This document shows positions 1,187-19,100 of a stretch of DNA of 24,092 bases, one piece after another. Position numbers and translations under genes: made by a program. The stretch is from a virus: positions 1-24,092 of IMG/VR virus record IMGVR_UViG_3300048587_001124; one strand, given 5' to 3'. Position 1 is the first letter of the stretch. Each line of letters begins with the position of its first letter. Below the pieces are notes generated by a model. It ran no database searches. It had not been told where the DNA came from and was given only the letters and a program-made list of their open reading frames with translations.

Positions 1187-1534
1187 TTATTTCGCGACAG
1201 TTTTTGCGCCCGACTTGATCATATAATGACGCTTGCCGCCCTCCAGTTTTTCGGAGACCACCTCGTAGCCATGCTTCTTCACAAGCGTGTGCGAGATTGC
1301 GCTCCTCACCGTGTGCTTTTGCCAGCCATTTTCTGCTGCCATTTCCTCGACGGTTGCCCCGTTGGGGCGACTCAGCAGGGCGACGAGCTTGCCAAGTTTC
1401 GTGCCTGGCATCGTGGCGACGGCCTTGAGACCAGCCTTCATGGGTTCTGAGATCGGCTTGCCCTTGGGCGCGGCCTTGGATTTGAAGGGTTGCGACTTCT
1501 TAACACTTTTTGATGGTGTGCTTTTCTTGGACAT
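1187..1534 (-). CDS. DUF3489 winged-helix protein
   Basis: A 115-residue leftward gene. Residues 1-30 are a lysine- and serine-rich, strongly basic tail (MSKKSTPSKSVKKSQ and onward). Residues about 40-108 carry the DUF3489 pattern: LGKLVALLSRPNGATVEEMA, then NGWQKHTVRSAIS, then GKRHYMI, which reads as a winged helix-turn-helix. The protein is therefore a likely DNA-binding regulator or nucleoid-type protein. The ATG at 1532-1534 has an excellent AAAGGAGG ribosome-binding site. It is divergent from the small terminase gene, with 98 bases between the starts, and ends at a hairpin terminator. DUF3489 proteins are frequent in alphaproteobacterial genomes and their prophages; the target here is unknown. 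Confidence 0.8.
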   Translation of the reverse strand: MSKKSTPSKSVKKSQPFKSKAAPKGKPISEPMKAGLKAVATMPGTKLGKLVALLSRPNGATVEEMAAENGWQKHTVRSAISHTLVKKHGYEVVSEKLEGGKRHYMIKSGAKTVAK

Positions 1535-2172: not shown

Positions 2173-4065
2173 ATGGATGCTTTGCAAGATTGTCTTTCGC
2201 ACGCGGCCTTCGCGTTGCGGCCTGATCCCCGCTTGACGGTATCGGAATGGGCGGACACACATCGCTTCTTGTCGCAGACGGCCTCTGGTGCGCCTGGGCC
2301 GTGGCGCACCGAACGCACGCCGTATATACGCGAGATTATGGATTGCCTTTCGCCGTCTTCTCCTGTGGAGAAGGTCGTCTTCATGAAGGGCGCGCAGATT
2401 GGCGGTACGGAAGCGGGCAACAATTGGATTGGCTACGTCATTCACCATGCGCCGGGGCCGATGCTGGCGGTACAGCCGACTGTGGAAATGGCAAAACGCT
2501 GGTCGAAACAGCGTATCGCTTCTCTGATCGACAGCACCCCCGTCCTGCGGGAGCGCGTCAAAGAAGCCCGCGCCCGCGACAGCGGCAACACGGTGCAGAG
2601 TAAGGAATTTTCGGGCGGCATCCTCGTGATGACCGGCGCAAACAGCGCGGTCGGCCTGCGCTCGATGCCGGTGCGCTACCTCTTTCTGGATGAAGTTGAC
2701 GCATACGATTTTGACGTTGATGGCGAAGGCGATCCCGTCAGTCTTGCCAGCCAACGTACTATCACGTTTGCTAACCGCAAAATATTTCTGGTTTCAACCC
2801 CGACCATCCAGGGGTTGAGCCGTATTGAACTGGAATACGAAGCCTCCGACCGACGCCGCTGGTGGATTCCATGCCCTGAATGTCAGGAATATCAGGTGCT
2901 GGAGGAAAAGCGCCTGCAATGGCCGAAGGATCATCCCGAAGAGGCCGCTTATTTCTGCGCTCATTGTGGCGTCGCCATTCCCAGCCACCGCAAGGTTTGG
3001 ATGAACAGTCGCGGCGAGTGGCGGGCAGATGCGCCAGGAGAAGGAAAAGCGGCTGGCTTCCACCTGTCCGGCCTCAACAGTCCGTGGCTGTCTTGGACGC
3101 AGATCGCAGAGCGCAGGGTTGCCGCAAAAGACGATGCGGCGATGAAGGTCTATGTGAATACGATTGAAGCGCGGACATGGACGGAATCCGGCGAGGCTCC
3201 CGAATGGCAACGCCTCTATGACCGTCGTGAAGATTATCGGATCAGGCAAGTGCCGGAAGGCGGCCTCTTCCTGACTGCGGGTGTCGACGTCCAGAAAGAT
3301 CGCATTGAACTTGAAATTGTAGCTTGGGGCCGTGACCGCGAGAGCTGGTCTATCGATTATCGCGTATTGCAAGGCGATCCGGTTAAGCCCGATGTTTGGA
3401 AACAGCTCGATGACGTGCTGGCTGAAACATTTACACATATCAGTAATACAGAGCTGGCGATCTTAAGGCTTGCCATCGATACCGGCTACGCCACACAAGA
3501 AGTTTACGATTGGGTGCGACGGCAAAGCGACCGTGTGATTGCCATTAAAGGCGTTGATCGCCTTGGTGCCGCCATCGGTACGCCGGGGCATATCGACGTT
3601 ACCAGCAACGGCAAGCGCAAGCGGCGTGGTCTGCTGGTCTGGCCGGTTGGCTCGTCTTTCTGCAAGTCCGAACTTTATGGTTGCCTGCGAAAAGATACAC
3701 TGACCGATGAACAACGCGCCAATGGCGACAAGCCGCCTGCGGGTTTCTGCCATTTCCCCAAGCATGGGGAGGAATATTTCAAGCAATTGACGGCAGAGCG
3801 GCTGGTCACAATCAAAGACCGTCGCGGCTTTCCACGCCGCGAATGGCGCAAGATGCGGGAACGCAACGAGGCATTGGATTGCCGCATCTATGCGCGCGCC
3901 GCTGCCGCGGCCCTTGGAATTGATCGCTTCGGCGAAACAACATGGCAACGGCTGGAACAGGCTTTGGGGCGCATGACCCCACGTCATACGGACGCGCCAG
4001 AGCCACCGAAACCGACACAAACCCCGTCCACGACACGGCGGGTTATCAGGAGCAATTACCTATGA
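2173..4065 (+). CDS. terL: Terminase large subunit, GpA family
   Basis: A 630-residue DNA-packaging motor with ATPase and nuclease parts, as in lambda gpA. A Walker A-like element is at residues 72-80 (KGAQIGGTE) and Walker B at 169-178 (YLFLDEVDAY). A zinc-binding pair follows: CPEC at 234-237 and CAHC at 262-265. The RNase H-like nuclease is marked by GVDVQKDRIE near 370-379, with Asp372, and by IDTG at 435-438 with Asp436, plus a late ALDCRIYARAAA segment. Length fits the family. The start directly follows the stop of the small subunit, and the end overlaps the next gene as ATGA. All key residues visible in this reading are intact, so an active enzyme is expected. GpA-type terminases usually go with cos-type cutting, which would place a cos site near the left of the module, though none was identified. 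Confidence 0.95.
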   Translation: MDALQDCLSHAAFALRPDPRLTVSEWADTHRFLSQTASGAPGPWRTERTPYIREIMDCLSPSSPVEKVVFMKGAQIGGTEAGNNWIGYVIHHAPGPMLAVQPTVEMAKRWSKQRIASLIDSTPVLRERVKEARARDSGNTVQSKEFSGGILVMTGANSAVGLRSMPVRYLFLDEVDAYDFDVDGEGDPVSLASQRTITFANRKIFLVSTPTIQGLSRIELEYEASDRRRWWIPCPECQEYQVLEEKRLQWPKDHPEEAAYFCAHCGVAIPSHRKVWMNSRGEWRADAPGEGKAAGFHLSGLNSPWLSWTQIAERRVAAKDDAAMKVYVNTIEARTWTESGEAPEWQRLYDRREDYRIRQVPEGGLFLTAGVDVQKDRIELEIVAWGRDRESWSIDYRVLQGDPVKPDVWKQLDDVLAETFTHISNTELAILRLAIDTGYATQEVYDWVRRQSDRVIAIKGVDRLGAAIGTPGHIDVTSNGKRKRRGLLVWPVGSSFCKSELYGCLRKDTLTDEQRANGDKPPAGFCHFPKHGEEYFKQLTAERLVTIKDRRGFPRREWRKMRERNEALDCRIYARAAAAALGIDRFGETTWQRLEQALGRMTPRHTDAPEPPKPTQTPSTTRRVIRSNYL

Positions 4066-14138: not shown

Positions 14139-14492
14139 ATGTCCTTCTCTTGGCCTGAAACGCTTCCGCAACGGCTCGCTGCTTCGGACTTCAGCGACAG
14201 CCTGCCCGACAACGTCATCACCACAACGATGGATGCCGGCCCACCTAAACGCCGCCGAAAAACAACGGCAAACATCCGCACGATCTCCGGCTCGATGGTC
14301 ATGACAACGGCAGAATGGAACGCTTTGGTCACGTTCTTTCAGGACATCATCAAGGAAACGCTTCCCTTCGAGCTTCCTGCGCCGGGTGAAGATGTCGGCA
14401 TATTGACCGTGGTATTCGGCGCGCCGCCGCAACGTCAATATTTCGGCCCAGGCCGTTGGCGCGTCGGTCTGAAATTCGAGATACAGCCATGA
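14139..14492 (+). CDS. Minor tail protein (gpM position)
   Basis: A 117-residue protein between the tape measure and DUF1833 genes, where lambda has M. It starts MSFSWPETLPQRL and includes RTISGSMVMTTAEWNALVTFF, a FELPAPGED loop and a final YFGPGRWRVGLKFEIQP, a beta-rich fold common at the tail tip of this phage group. The role is most likely in joining tip and tube. It starts three bases after the tape measure stop and overlaps the next gene as ATGA. Family name not certain. Confidence 0.72.
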   Translation: MSFSWPETLPQRLAASDFSDSLPDNVITTTMDAGPPKRRRKTTANIRTISGSMVMTTAEWNALVTFFQDIIKETLPFELPAPGEDVGILTVVFGAPPQRQYFGPGRWRVGLKFEIQP

Positions 14493-14962
14493 GCCGCAAC
14501 GTCAGCGCCGAGCTAAAACAAGCCGTTTACGCACAGGAGACCGAGCATGAATTCGTCGTCCTGATCAGCCTCAGCCACCCGGATTTGGAAGAACCAATCC
14601 GCGTCAATAGCAGCGGACAGGCTGTTCTGCATAACGGTGATAACTATGTGGCCTTTCCTTTTGAAGTCATTTTACCCGATGATGTAGACGACAGACCTCC
14701 GCGCGCCAAACTGCGGATCGATAACATCAGCCGCGAGATTGTTCTTGCCATTCGCACGATCAGCTCCGCGCCCTATGTCACCATCCGCATTGTGATGGCG
14801 GAAACGCCGGATGTGGTGGAGGCCGAGTTTCTGGACTTTCGTCTGTCCAATATCAGCTACGACCAACTCACCGTCGAGGGCGACCTTACGTTGGAAGAAT
14901 TTATCGGTGAACCTTATCCGGCGCGAGTATTTTCTCCGGCGGATTTTCCAGGGCTATTCTAA
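14489..14962 (+). CDS. DUF1833 minor tail protein (gpL position)
   Basis: A 157-residue protein with the DUF1833 pattern: HEFVVLISLSHPDLEEPIRV, NYVAFPFEVILPDD, PPRAKLRIDNISREIVLAIR, YVTIRIVMAETPDVVEAEFLDF and a closing GEPYPARVFSPADFPGLF. Such proteins lie next to the NlpC/P60 peptidase in lambda-like and gene transfer agent-like clusters and belong to the tail tip. The ATG at 14489 overlaps the preceding stop; an ATG at 14456 would lie inside the previous gene and lacks the family start. Its stop overlaps the end of a leftward cargo gene by three bases, which separates it from its usual NlpC/P60 partner by over 700 bases. Confidence 0.83.
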   Translation: MSRNVSAELKQAVYAQETEHEFVVLISLSHPDLEEPIRVNSSGQAVLHNGDNYVAFPFEVILPDDVDDRPPRAKLRIDNISREIVLAIRTISSAPYVTIRIVMAETPDVVEAEFLDFRLSNISYDQLTVEGDLTLEEFIGEPYPARVFSPADFPGLF

Positions 14963-15633
14963 GAGTTTTGTATTGCAATACTTACGATTTCTGACGCATC
15001 GGGAGCGCCAGGTAAGTCGCCTGTATATTTCAAGATTAGCTTTGCAATGCCCTGCTTGATATGAATGAAGAGCTTGTGCATCTGATCGTGAGAGAAAGTA
15101 ATGGCTGCGTCTGGTAAAACAAGAGGTTGCATCATCTTGAGCTTTGTATGATCCGTTGCGGGCAATATGCCGCCGTTGTGTATTATATTTTTGCGAAGGA
15201 TTCTTAGATCACCGAATTCATCTATCATAACTTCATTCGGTGTAACGCCGCGAACCTTGGCGATTTGTGGCCGGATTTCTTCATCCCAATACGCAAATAT
15301 AAAGACGATAATTGACCAGCACACTTGCTGCTCATTGAAGCCAGCCTCTGAATTCACTTTTATAAAATCATCAGCTCTGATAATGCGATGATGTATAGCA
15401 TCAGGAGATGACGGGTCTTCAAAACTTGCCCACATAACAACGGGGCGACCATCTTTAATTTGTCGCCCTACAGGGCGTTGAACACGAGCCACTTGCCTCT
15501 CGACACGAACCTTGTTTCCTTCAAAGCTGGACAAGGCATCGGAATAGACGCCGACCTGCTTGTTAACAAAGTCGATAAAGCTACGCAGGATGGGCAACTC
15601 CGCCCTCGCTTTTTCAAATTCTGCTTTTTCCAT
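14959..15633 (-). CDS. HEPN-like cargo protein in tail operon
   Basis: A 224-residue leftward gene set against the rightward tail operon. Residues 116-125 (WDEEIRPQIA) and 139-155 (EFGDLRILRKNIIHNGG) form the pattern of HEPN-like helical proteins, with Arg147 and His152 in R-x4-H spacing; in HEPN RNases this pair is catalytic. The N-terminal 60 residues are charged and helical; residues 82-95 are RIIRADDFIKVNSE. No signal peptide or membrane segment. The gene is visibly more AT-rich than its neighbours (19 G/C in the 60 bases from 15181, against 37 in the 60 bases from 12061) and has its own candidate promoter, as expected for a moron gene. It may act as a defence or toxin RNase, or as a non-catalytic HEPN protein. 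No antitoxin partner is visible. The ribosome-binding site is poor. Confidence 0.6.
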   Translation of the reverse strand: MEKAEFEKARAELPILRSFIDFVNKQVGVYSDALSSFEGNKVRVERQVARVQRPVGRQIKDGRPVVMWASFEDPSSPDAIHHRIIRADDFIKVNSEAGFNEQQVCWSIIVFIFAYWDEEIRPQIAKVRGVTPNEVMIDEFGDLRILRKNIIHNGGILPATDHTKLKMMQPLVLPDAAITFSHDQMHKLFIHIKQGIAKLILKYTGDLPGAPDASEIVSIAIQNS

Positions 15634-15675
15634 ACGGATTGAGTAGCTCTTTACCGAAATCCCGTCAACCTAAAA

Positions 15676-15688
15676 CCATAAATTATGG
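15676..15688. repeat. 13-bp palindrome over the cargo promoter
   Basis: CCATAA-A-TTATGG is a perfect inverted repeat with a single central base. It covers the candidate -10 element of the leftward HEPN-like gene and lies ten bases before the ATG of the rightward NlpC/P60 gene. A repressor site is possible; a chance palindrome in AT-rich DNA cannot be excluded. Confidence 0.35.
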
Positions 15689-15711
15689 GTTCTTTTAAAT
15701 GTCCATCCCAA
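15682..15711 (-). promoter_or_regulatory. Candidate promoter for HEPN-like gene
   Basis: On the minus strand TTGGGA (15706-15711) and CATAAT (15682-15687) are separated by 18 bases, four and five matches of six to sigma-70 consensus. Transcription would begin about 40 bases before the ATG at 15633. The -35 element lies inside the start of the NlpC/P60 gene. The promoter would allow expression independent of the late operon, for example from a quiescent prophage. Confidence 0.4.
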
Positions 15712-16139
15712 TCTGGGTCGGCCATTACATTGGCTTGCCTTTCAAAGAGCATGGTCGAGATCGGAAAGGTGTCGATTGCTGGGGGCTTGTCCGGCTGGTT
15801 ATGGCGGAGCAGTTCGGCATCGCGCTGCCGTCCTATTCCACCTACTACGATAGCACGACACGCGAAGACCAGCTTGCGCCGCTGATCGAAGAAGAACGCA
15901 AGCATTGGATTCCTATCGAACACGGCGAAGAAAAATTCGGCGACGTGGTCGTCTTGCGAATGCGCGGGCAACCGATCCACGTCGGCCTCGTCATTGAAAA
16001 AGGTCGAATGCTCCATGCCGAGGTCGGCATCGGTAGCGTTCTCGACAGTTACGCATCTGCACGCTGGGCTTTAAGGGTCACAGGATTTTACCGCTATGGA
16101 GAAACCGGAACAAACGGTCTGGCTAACAGCCTGCCCTGA
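15699..16139 (+). CDS. NlpC/P60 tail-tip peptidase (gpK-like)
   Basis: A 146-residue cysteine peptidase expected to sit at the tail tip and cut peptidoglycan peptides or process tail proteins at infection. The catalytic motif is DCWGLVRLVM with Cys27, followed by HVGLVIE with His94 and a third polar residue probably at His106 (MLHAEVG). The N-terminal VGHYIGLPFKEHGRDRKGV is typical of the tail-associated group. Residues needed for activity are present. It follows the inserted cargo gene and overlaps the TipJ/J-like gene by 44 bases. The start at 15699 matches the family N-terminus although the ribosome-binding site is weak. Confidence 0.88.
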   Translation: MSIPIWVGHYIGLPFKEHGRDRKGVDCWGLVRLVMAEQFGIALPSYSTYYDSTTREDQLAPLIEEERKHWIPIEHGEEKFGDVVVLRMRGQPIHVGLVIEKGRMLHAEVGIGSVLDSYASARWALRVTGFYRYGETGTNGLANSLP

Positions 16140-19100
16140 GCCTTTTCGCGTCCGCAACATCAGGGAGAAAATCCCGCAAGGCTGGACGATTGCTGAAATC
16201 GTCCTTTTTGCTATCCCCCGCGTCTCCGTTCGCTTTGCCCATGTATTCGTCAACGGGGACTACATTCCGCAAACCATGTGGCTGTCCGTCCGGCCCAAGG
16301 CGGGGACTGTTGTTACCATCCGCGTTGTCCCCGGCAAAGGGGGCGGAAAAAACCCCATTGCAACGGTTCTGTCCCTTGCCCTTATCGTTGCCGCCCCAGC
16401 CCTTGGAGCCTCCTTAGCGACCGCGACGGGGCTTGCCACGGCTACCTCTGCGGGGCTGATCTCGTGGACGGTTGGCGGCATTAGCGGCCTTTCCATAGCT
16501 ACGGGGATTGTTAGCGTTGTGGGCAGGCTGGTGATTAGCGCCATCGCCCCGCCGTCGAAGCAAAAGAACGGCGGAAGCGTCGCCAGCATTACAGAAAAAC
16601 CCACGCAATTTATCAGCGGGGGCAAAAACCAAGTCCTCCGCTTCAACGCTATCCCGCGGCCCCTCGGCAAGCATCGGATGATGCCGCCCTATGGCGCGTT
16701 GCCCTTCACGGAGATTGTCGGCAACGACCAATACGTCCGTATGCTTTTTGTTTGGGGCTATGGCCCTCTTGTCATCAGCGATCTGCGGATCGGCGACACA
16801 AGCATCGACGAATTCGCCGATGTCGAAATTGAAACCCGCCAGGGCTACGACGACGACGCGCCGTTGACGCTCTTCACGAAGCAGATCAACCAGAACGATC
16901 TTTCTATCACGCTCACAGCCGCCGCTGGATGGCAGGTGCGGACGACGGAAGACAATGTCGATGAAATCAGTATCGATGTGACCTTCCCGCGTGGCCTTGC
17001 GAAATACGGCAGTAGCGGCAGCAAAAGCAACCAGACCGTCAATATCGAAGTCGAATACGCCCCGACAGGAACGGGCAACTGGGGCAACGCTGGCACAACC
17101 ACGCCCGCCCTCAGTATCACCGCGAAACAAAGCGCCGCCGTCCGCAATGGCCTTCGTTTCAAAGTCACACGCGGGCAATACGATGTACGGCTGCGCCGCG
17201 TGACGGCAGACAGCACCAGCGATACCATTATCGATGAAGTTGTCTGGACGGCTTTGCGCTCCATCCGCAACGATAACCCCGTCAAAATCAAGGGGCTGGC
17301 TGTTACGGTCTTGCGTATCAGGGCAACCGACCAGCTCAACGGCATCGTTGACCAATTTAGCGGTGTTGTCAGCTCCATCCTGCCGGACTGGAATGGATCA
17401 AGCTGGATTGCGCGTGAGACCGCCAACCCTGCCGCCGTCTATCGTGAAGTTTTGCAGGGCAAGGCCAATGCCCGCGCCCTCGGTGACAGCCGCCTCGACA
17501 TGGCTGCTTTCCAGCAATGGCATGAGGACTGTGCGGCGGCAGGCAGAGAATTCAATTATGTGGTGGACAGCCAGCTCAGCGTTCACGACCTTCTTGCCGA
17601 CATCGCTGCCGCAGGCCGTGCCAGCCCTGCCGTTATCGACGGCAAGTGGCGCGTGGTGCAAGACAAGGTGCAAAGCGCCCCAGCGCAACATTTCACGCCC
17701 CGCAACAGCTTCGGCTTTCAATCGCAAAAAGCCTTCCCCGAATTGCCGCATGGCTTTCGGGTTAAATTTCTCAACCGCAACAATGACTGGCAAGCCGATG
17801 AGAGGATTGTTTACGACGACGGATACGATGCCACCAACGCTACGAAGTTTGAGGGGCTGGAACTAATCGGGATTACCCATCCCGACCAAGCCTGGAAGGA
17901 TGGCCGCTACCACATCGCCACAGCGCGCTTGCGGCCGGAAACCTTCAGCTTCAATACTGATATCGAGCATATCGTCTGCACAAGAGGCGACCTGATCCGG
18001 CTCACCCATGACGTTTTGCTTGTTGGTCTTGGTTCTGCTCGCATCAAGTCCTTGCAAGATGACGATGACAACGTGACCGGGGTTGTCGTTGACGACACCT
18101 TTACAATGGAAGCGGATAAAAGCTATTCCGTCCGCATCCGCAAGGCTGATGGCTCTAGCCTCATCTGCGCCCTGACAACCGTTGCGGGGGAAACCAAGGC
18201 TCTCACGCTCTCCACGCCTCTGTCTTTTGCCGAGGCGCCGGGCGTTGGCGACCTCGTTCTTTTTGGCGAGACAGGACTGGAAAGTATCGAATGTATCGTC
18301 AAGAGCATTGAGCCACAGTCCGATCTGACCGCACGGATTACCTGTGTCGATGCCGCGCCTGCCGTCCATACGGCAGATGTCGGCACGATCCCGCCTTACG
18401 AAAGCAACATCACCGTTCCGGCAGACCTGAAGCGTCCGCCGTCCCCTGTTGTCATCAGCGTCCAGACGGGCGAAGAAGCCTTGATCCGCAACCCAGACGG
18501 ATCGTTTTCCTCTACCATCACAATGACGCTGGCGACACCGCTTTATTCGGGCGTCCTATTCACCGACGTGCAAATCCGCGCCGATGGAGAAACAACCTTC
18601 CGGTCGGCCAGCTTTATCCAGTCTGGCAACCAGATAAGGGTGATCGATGTCGAGGCGGCTGAATACTACGACATCAGTATTGCCTATAAAAACAGCAACG
18701 GCCTGACCTCGCCGCCGACGATCATCACCAACCAGAATGTTGTTGGCGCGACAGAGCCTCCTGCTGACGTGGCGGGCTTTCAGGTCAACGTCAACGGGCA
18801 AACCGCTCACTTGTCATGGGATGCCGTCCCAAACATCGATCTCAACCACTACAGAATCAAGTTTTCGCCCGATATGTCCGGCAATGCTTCGTGGGCAAGC
18901 TCGGTCGATCTGGTTCTGAAGGCATCCGCACCGGCCACTTCGGTCACCGTCCCCGCTCTAGTGGGAACGTACTTGATCAAAGCTGTAGACTTCGGCGGAC
19001 GCGAAAGCGTCAACGAAGCAAGGGTGGTTTCGACCATCGCCGATGTTGAAGGCTTCAACGCCGTCACGGTCTTGACGGAACAGCCGGAATACATGGGTAT

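Follow-up and report, generated by a model that had tools for sequence, protein, structure and literature searches.

A putative HEPN-family gene as exchangeable antisense cargo between two tail genes of a phage

Why does a phage carry a gene that runs against its tail operon, at a point where two tail genes normally follow each other directly? The window analyzed here, a stretch of 24,092 nucleotides of viral DNA, contains such a gene (the cargo gene). It lies within a lambda-like tail operon, between the tape measure and the J-like tip protein, starts with an ATG codon, and overlaps the 3' end of the DUF1833 gene with its own 3' end by 4 nt (Table 1). ORF list, Pfam matches, and base composition agree with the initial annotation of an AT-rich, leftward gene that splits the DUF1833 gene from the NlpC/P60 gene: the cargo gene has a GC content of 0.449 (GC3 0.449), and the other measured genes range from 0.53 to 0.59 (GC3 0.60-0.70). 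The two elements that had been pointed out in its protein, WDEEIRP at residues 116-122 and R147-K-N-I-I-H152, are also present as described.

Table 1. Features of the cargo locus and of the corresponding junction in other phages. Positions without a locus prefix refer to the window.
Feature	Position	Strand	Basis or remark
Cargo gene, 224-aa putative HEPN-type protein	14959..15633	-	ORF list; 19-member family including full-length homologues
DUF1833 tail gene, left anchor	14492..14962	+	PF08875, E 7.5e-10
NlpC/P60 tail gene, right anchor	15699..16139	+	PF00877, E 2.7e-15
Exchangeable slot, DUF1833 stop to NlpC/P60 start	14963..15698	.	DNA comparison with L009 and L010
65-nt spacer upstream of cargo gene	15634..15698	-	putative home of the cargo promoter (plus first NlpC codons)
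Predicted HEPN-like helical core, residues ~99-204	15022..15339	-	AlphaFold2 helices 99-128, 144-151, 182-204; Swt1 profile match
R147 codon of Rx4H	15193..15195	-	invariant, 19/19
H152 codon of Rx4H	15178..15180	-	invariant, 19/19
W116-D117-E118-E119-I120-R121, acidic-x3-[KR] element (D117x3R121)	15271..15288	-	alignment
Leftward cargo of L010, 158 aa	L010:856-1332	-	family motif RNNLFHG[GE]K
Leftward cargo of L009, 181 aa	L009:809-1354	-	RILNVIVH (Rx6H)
DUF1493 (PF07377) gene in DUF1833/NlpC junction	L044:2341-2676	+	more distant prophage-like locus
HNH-type endonuclease gene in junction, overlaps DUF1833 end	L141:1814-2266	+	by eye, HSCDHPECVNPDHL

The two anchor genes do normally adjoin, as had been assumed. 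Of eight annotated phages, seven have their next annotated gene no more than 30 nt past the DUF1833 stop, and in most of these it is an overlapping tail gene or an NlpC/P60-type peptidase; in the eighth (SOVA965), ∼300 nt past the stop carry no annotated gene. Among 75 viral contigs found via their J-like protein (rows not de-duplicated, one anomalous), the DUF1833-NlpC/P60 spacing ranges from -9 to 66 nt in 59 and is at least 120 nt in 15. A leftward gene of at least 100 aa occurs at this junction only in the window's own clade, which upholds the description of the site as unusual for a leftward gene. The junction itself, however, is a recurrent insertion point in this phage group (15 of the 75 loci). 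In more distant phages, it is occupied by a DUF1493 gene (L044), by a gene of HNH type (L141), or by small ORFs on the plus strand.

The window's clade consists of the three phages found, namely the window, L009, and L010. L009 is 96% identical to the window in both the DUF1833 and the NlpC/P60 protein, and L010 is 84 and 87% identical, respectively. A survey of the junction, as the initial annotation had proposed, revealed three different leftward genes in these three close phages, each at the exact position of the window slot. DNA homology between the window and L009 (86.6%) extends up to position 14966, is lost, and is back at 15697; homology to L010 ends at 14962 and is back at 15699. No DNA similarity to either phage was detected within the slot. 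Each swap exchanges a complete gene, its borders being precisely the stop codon of DUF1833 and the start codon of NlpC/P60; recombination in the conserved tail genes on either side would be the simplest mechanism. All three cargo genes have a low GC content (0.449 in the window, 0.419 and 0.388 in the others).

What kind of protein occupies the slot in the window? Members of the HEPN superfamily feature an Rx4-6H motif whose arginine is followed by a polar residue (N, D, or H in most cases), and an Ex3[KR] element is often present further upstream (PMC3710099). By itself, Rx4-6H occurs at chance level, being present in 74% of shuffles of the cargo protein and at a mean of 0.55 per 224 aa in the other window proteins. 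We nevertheless regard the Rx4H of the cargo protein as real, because it is conserved in 19 homologues with a constant R-to-H spacing of 4. Only W116, A125, D142, R144, R147, and H152 are invariant in all rows of the 19-sequence alignment, ten of which are just 18-25% identical to the window protein. The conservation of R147 and H152, on which the initial annotation had staked its assignment, is therefore complete. The residue after R147 is N in 10, K in 3 (including the window protein), H in 2, and T in 2 sequences (17 of 19). In the upstream element, W116 is followed by D117 in 16 of 19 and by R121 in 17 of 19 sequences, with K in the remaining two; the acidic position differs from the E that is typical of the superfamily (PMC3710099). 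Five weak plasmid relatives retain W116, D117, R121, A125, D142, L143, R147, and H152.

The single cargo protein had no match in Pfam, PHROGs, PADLOC, NCBIfam, or PDB sequences, and tblastn against the phage collection returned no homologue. A genome scan identified proteins of 61-64% identity in Bradyrhizobium, Mesorhizobium, another Rhizobiaceae, Rhodoplanes, a Granulicella MAG, and a Binatia MAG; planctomycete MAGs encode homologues of 48-49% identity, and Sphingobium, Pectobacterium, and actinobacteria encode distant ones. The family thus spans several phyla, the 19-homologue set covering alpha- and gammaproteobacteria, acidobacteria, planctomycetes, and actinobacteria, and is unrecognized by the libraries searched (no model of Pfam, PADLOC, or NCBIfam matches it at cut-off). 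The occurrence of homologues of 61-64% identity in Rhizobiales, Granulicella, and a Binatia MAG indicates horizontal movement, and the cargo gene is probably a foreign, horizontally moving member of the HEPN family.

Among the sub-threshold library names are HEPN_Swt1 (0.045), HEPN_RiboL-PSP (0.11), and CARF-HEPN and RT-associated HEPN (∼0.03), mixed with unrelated families; the matches to HEPN_Swt1 (PF18731) and HEPN_RiboL-PSP (PF18735) lie below the Pfam cut-off. We compared the family by hhalign with profiles for these two families, built from members collected from genomes. The cargo family aligned with HEPN_Swt1 over 74 columns (P 0.026), with HEPN_RiboL-PSP over only 17 columns that span the Rx4H region (P 0.015), and with the cargo family of L010 (P 0.008-0.023), whereas three unrelated profiles from the same operon gave P 0.34-0.62. 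In the two alignments that were read out, those with Swt1 and L010, R and H are in register. For each HEPN-type target, none of 60 column-shuffled or reversed decoys reached the real score, although the absolute scores are weak. As in Abi2/Swt1-type HEPN proteins (PF18731; PMC3710099), a conserved tryptophan within a helix precedes an RN..H motif. Unlike in these proteins, the N-terminal half, with a β-hairpin predicted at low confidence for residues 50-72, and a GDLRxxR segment are not shared.

The HEPN fold is a bundle of four helices. The alignment-based AlphaFold2 model of the cargo protein (pLDDT 76, pTM 0.68) is largely helical, and its most confident part comprises the three helices of the putative core, whereas the single-sequence model was too poor (pLDDT 58). 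Searches with the alignment-based model by Foldseek (PDB, BFVD) and VIA-align gave no significant or specific match. The best structural match, an Mx stalk (Z 7.5), lies within the helical background, and these searches listed no HEPN chain, which excludes nothing. The HEPN assignment of the initial annotation is thus backed by the invariant R/H pair, by the acidic-x3-basic element, and by profile matches exceeding all decoys, but not by a significant fold match. On this sequence evidence, the cargo protein very probably belongs to the HEPN superfamily, and it is likely a catalytically active RNase.

The cargo of L010 has plasmid relatives that share an invariant R-N-x3-H-G-x-K (RNNLFHGGK), which is an Rx4H that no Pfam model recognizes. 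In Planktothrix, the neighbors are genes for a restriction enzyme and for a PglZ-like alkaline phosphatase; in Sinorhizobium they are type I restriction genes, and in Rhizobium a DEAD/DEAH helicase. The L010 cargo represents a second HEPN-type family, with relatives beside restriction and BREX-type genes. The cargo of L009 was not counted as HEPN, since its only relative (L057; WDLLNAILHS) shares the LNxIxHS segment but lacks the arginine of the Rx6H; it is possibly a degenerate HEPN-like or an unrelated helical family. Two of the three leftward cargos of the clade therefore appear to be HEPN-type. That the slot always holds a HEPN protein can be dismissed, given the L009 cargo and the DUF1493, HNH-type, and small ORFs of the distant phages.

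The genomic surroundings of homologues give some indication of function. In Mesorhizobium, the homologue is followed after 16 bp by a gene for Abi_alpha (PF14337), and a retron-type HNH nuclease plus an ATPase are found near the relative in Pantoea (L002), which has a DUF1493 gene two genes upstream of it as well. Most chromosomal homologues stand alone in mixed, ordinary contexts without known defense genes, and no consistent partner gene was found beside the closest ones. A role in defense is suggested indirectly by the precedent of the family, by the defense-type neighbors of some homologues, by the exchange of cargos among close phages, and by the family's movement across phyla and purifying selection on the gene; the cargo gene is most likely a swappable, putative defense gene.

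How could a phage keep such a gene without harming itself? In our preferred explanation, which we hold with a probability of roughly 0.55, the cargo protein is a stand-alone HEPN RNase, its activity being presumed, that is carried as exchangeable cargo and would be expressed in the lysogen, with late transcription of the tail genes working against it. In the silent prophage, the gene would be transcribed from a promoter of its own. Upon infection by another phage, its product would cut RNA as a dimer, with the metal-independent activity expected of HEPN RNases, and the infection would abort. During the late phase of the phage's own cycle, transcription of the tail operon through the cargo gene would oppose cargo expression. 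Upstream of the cargo gene, a promoter scan yielded one promoter-like site (15711-15682), which is not above shuffled expectation, so that no site stands out.

A known precedent is Tha from Staphylococcus aureus prophages (e.g. 80alpha gp03), a stand-alone HEPN RNase that is activated by minor tail proteins and is encoded antisense to the gene of its inhibitor, ith, in a noncontiguous operon (PMC11087260). By analogy, a tail component of the incoming phage would be the most attractive candidate for the trigger of the cargo protein. Both proteins are phage-borne and stand-alone, carry an Rx4H (RNSIMH in Tha, RKNIIH in the cargo protein), and are encoded in an antisense arrangement that could couple expression to the phage life cycle. 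In contrast to the cargo gene, which lies antisense within a tail operon, Tha (301 aa) is part of the lysogeny (cI) operon together with ith. No separate inhibitor is seen at the cargo locus, where the ORF list includes putative frames of 60-82 aa that run antisense across parts of the cargo gene. The two proteins are not sequence relatives: BLASTP of the cargo protein against Tha-1 gave E 17, and hhalign gave P 0.34 outside the motif. A more far-reaching version of our explanation would make the junction of this clade a dedicated site for immunity cassettes, with a one-gene HEPN RNase that is switched on in the lysogen, triggered by tail proteins of related phages entering the cell, and silenced during the phage's own lytic cycle by tail transcription antisense to the entire gene, so that no inhibitor protein is needed. 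We consider this version unlikely. Silencing by late tail transcription alone is a bold assumption, because Tha is switched mostly by the inhibitor protein and antisense transcription plays only a minor part (PMC11087260).

Several other explanations have to be weighed against the preferred one. The cargo protein might be a HEPN-type toxin for lysogen retention or growth control, either an orphan or neutralized by a host factor or RNA, which is not probable but deserves more credit than the alternatives below. Toxin-antitoxin systems include HEPN toxins with this motif (PMC3710099), and the cargo-family gene is alone in most genomes. However, the slot contains neither an antitoxin nor a nucleotidyltransferase gene, in line with the initial annotation, which had seen no antitoxin; the adjacent partner of HEPN-MNT or other two-gene toxin-antitoxin systems is thus absent. 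A nearby RNA antitoxin was discarded after a search of positions 14400-16200 returned no credible Rfam match. It also speaks against a toxin that the protein is conserved over its full length in unlinked contexts where no partner accompanies it, and addiction is hard to square with the presence of other genes in place of the cargo.

The HNH-type, DUF1493, and small ORFs that other phages carry at this junction would fit a neutral or selfish passenger at a site that simply tolerates insertions, without gain for the phage. This is improbable, as the family is under purifying selection (pN ∼0.24 and pS 0.82-0.93 against the closest homologues, synonymous change being saturated), the three cargos are intact with no remnants, replacement is exact from stop to start, and all three close phages share the leftward orientation. 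Slightly less probable still is a HEPN-like protein without catalytic activity, which would bind nucleic acid or protein, for example as a regulator or an accessory of tail assembly. Such a role would fit the placement among tail genes, the loss of the motif in some HEPN families (PMC3710099), and the relative of the L009 cargo without the arginine, but is hard to reconcile with R147 and H152 both being invariant across 19 divergent sequences. Moreover, most homologues are chromosomal genes of bacteria with no tail genes nearby, and the cargo gene lies on the opposite strand and is absent from most related phages.

The slot resembles the defense hotspots of P2 and P4, which occupy 1-5 kb beside cos, in that two conserved phage genes enclose accessory genes of high turnover; a hotspot of a Vibrio phage lies between cI and integrase (PMC9122126). 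Like defense hotspots, which are recognized by differing accessory genes between the same conserved pair, the window clade exhibits such differences. Unlike the P2/P4 hotspots, the cargo slot lies inside a tail operon and holds a single short gene in opposite orientation. The HEPN superfamily and phage-borne HEPN defense were already known; new is the slot with its whole-gene swapping. Prophages need defense genes that are kept from attacking their own lytic cycle, and a single-gene cassette antisense to tail genes would be a minimal solution to this problem of self-immunity. Cargo exchange together with antisense placement would offer a clean way to examine how prophages escape self-directed immunity, and the exact stop-to-start swapping suggests DUF1833 and NlpC as anchors for finding more small defense genes.

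The tail genes of the phage carrying the cargo resemble those of alphaproteobacterial phages. A search of alphaproteobacterial genomes for prophages of the clade found, as the closest, one distant relative (DUF1833 53% identical), and no recognized integrase or repressor is present within the 24-kb window. The terminase large subunit (2173-4065, plus strand) is ∼56% identical to terminases of Wolbachia phage WO, and the GC content of the window (∼0.57) is ill-suited to a Wolbachia host. Ahead of the terminase, a leftward group of small genes includes a DUF3489 protein (1187-1534, minus strand; PF11994, E 1.4e-21). At the junction of six other loci (L074, L076, L077, L085, L086, and L087), plus-strand ORFs of 52-94 aa fill the space between DUF1833 and NlpC; several of them resemble one another and may belong to a single family of short phage proteins.
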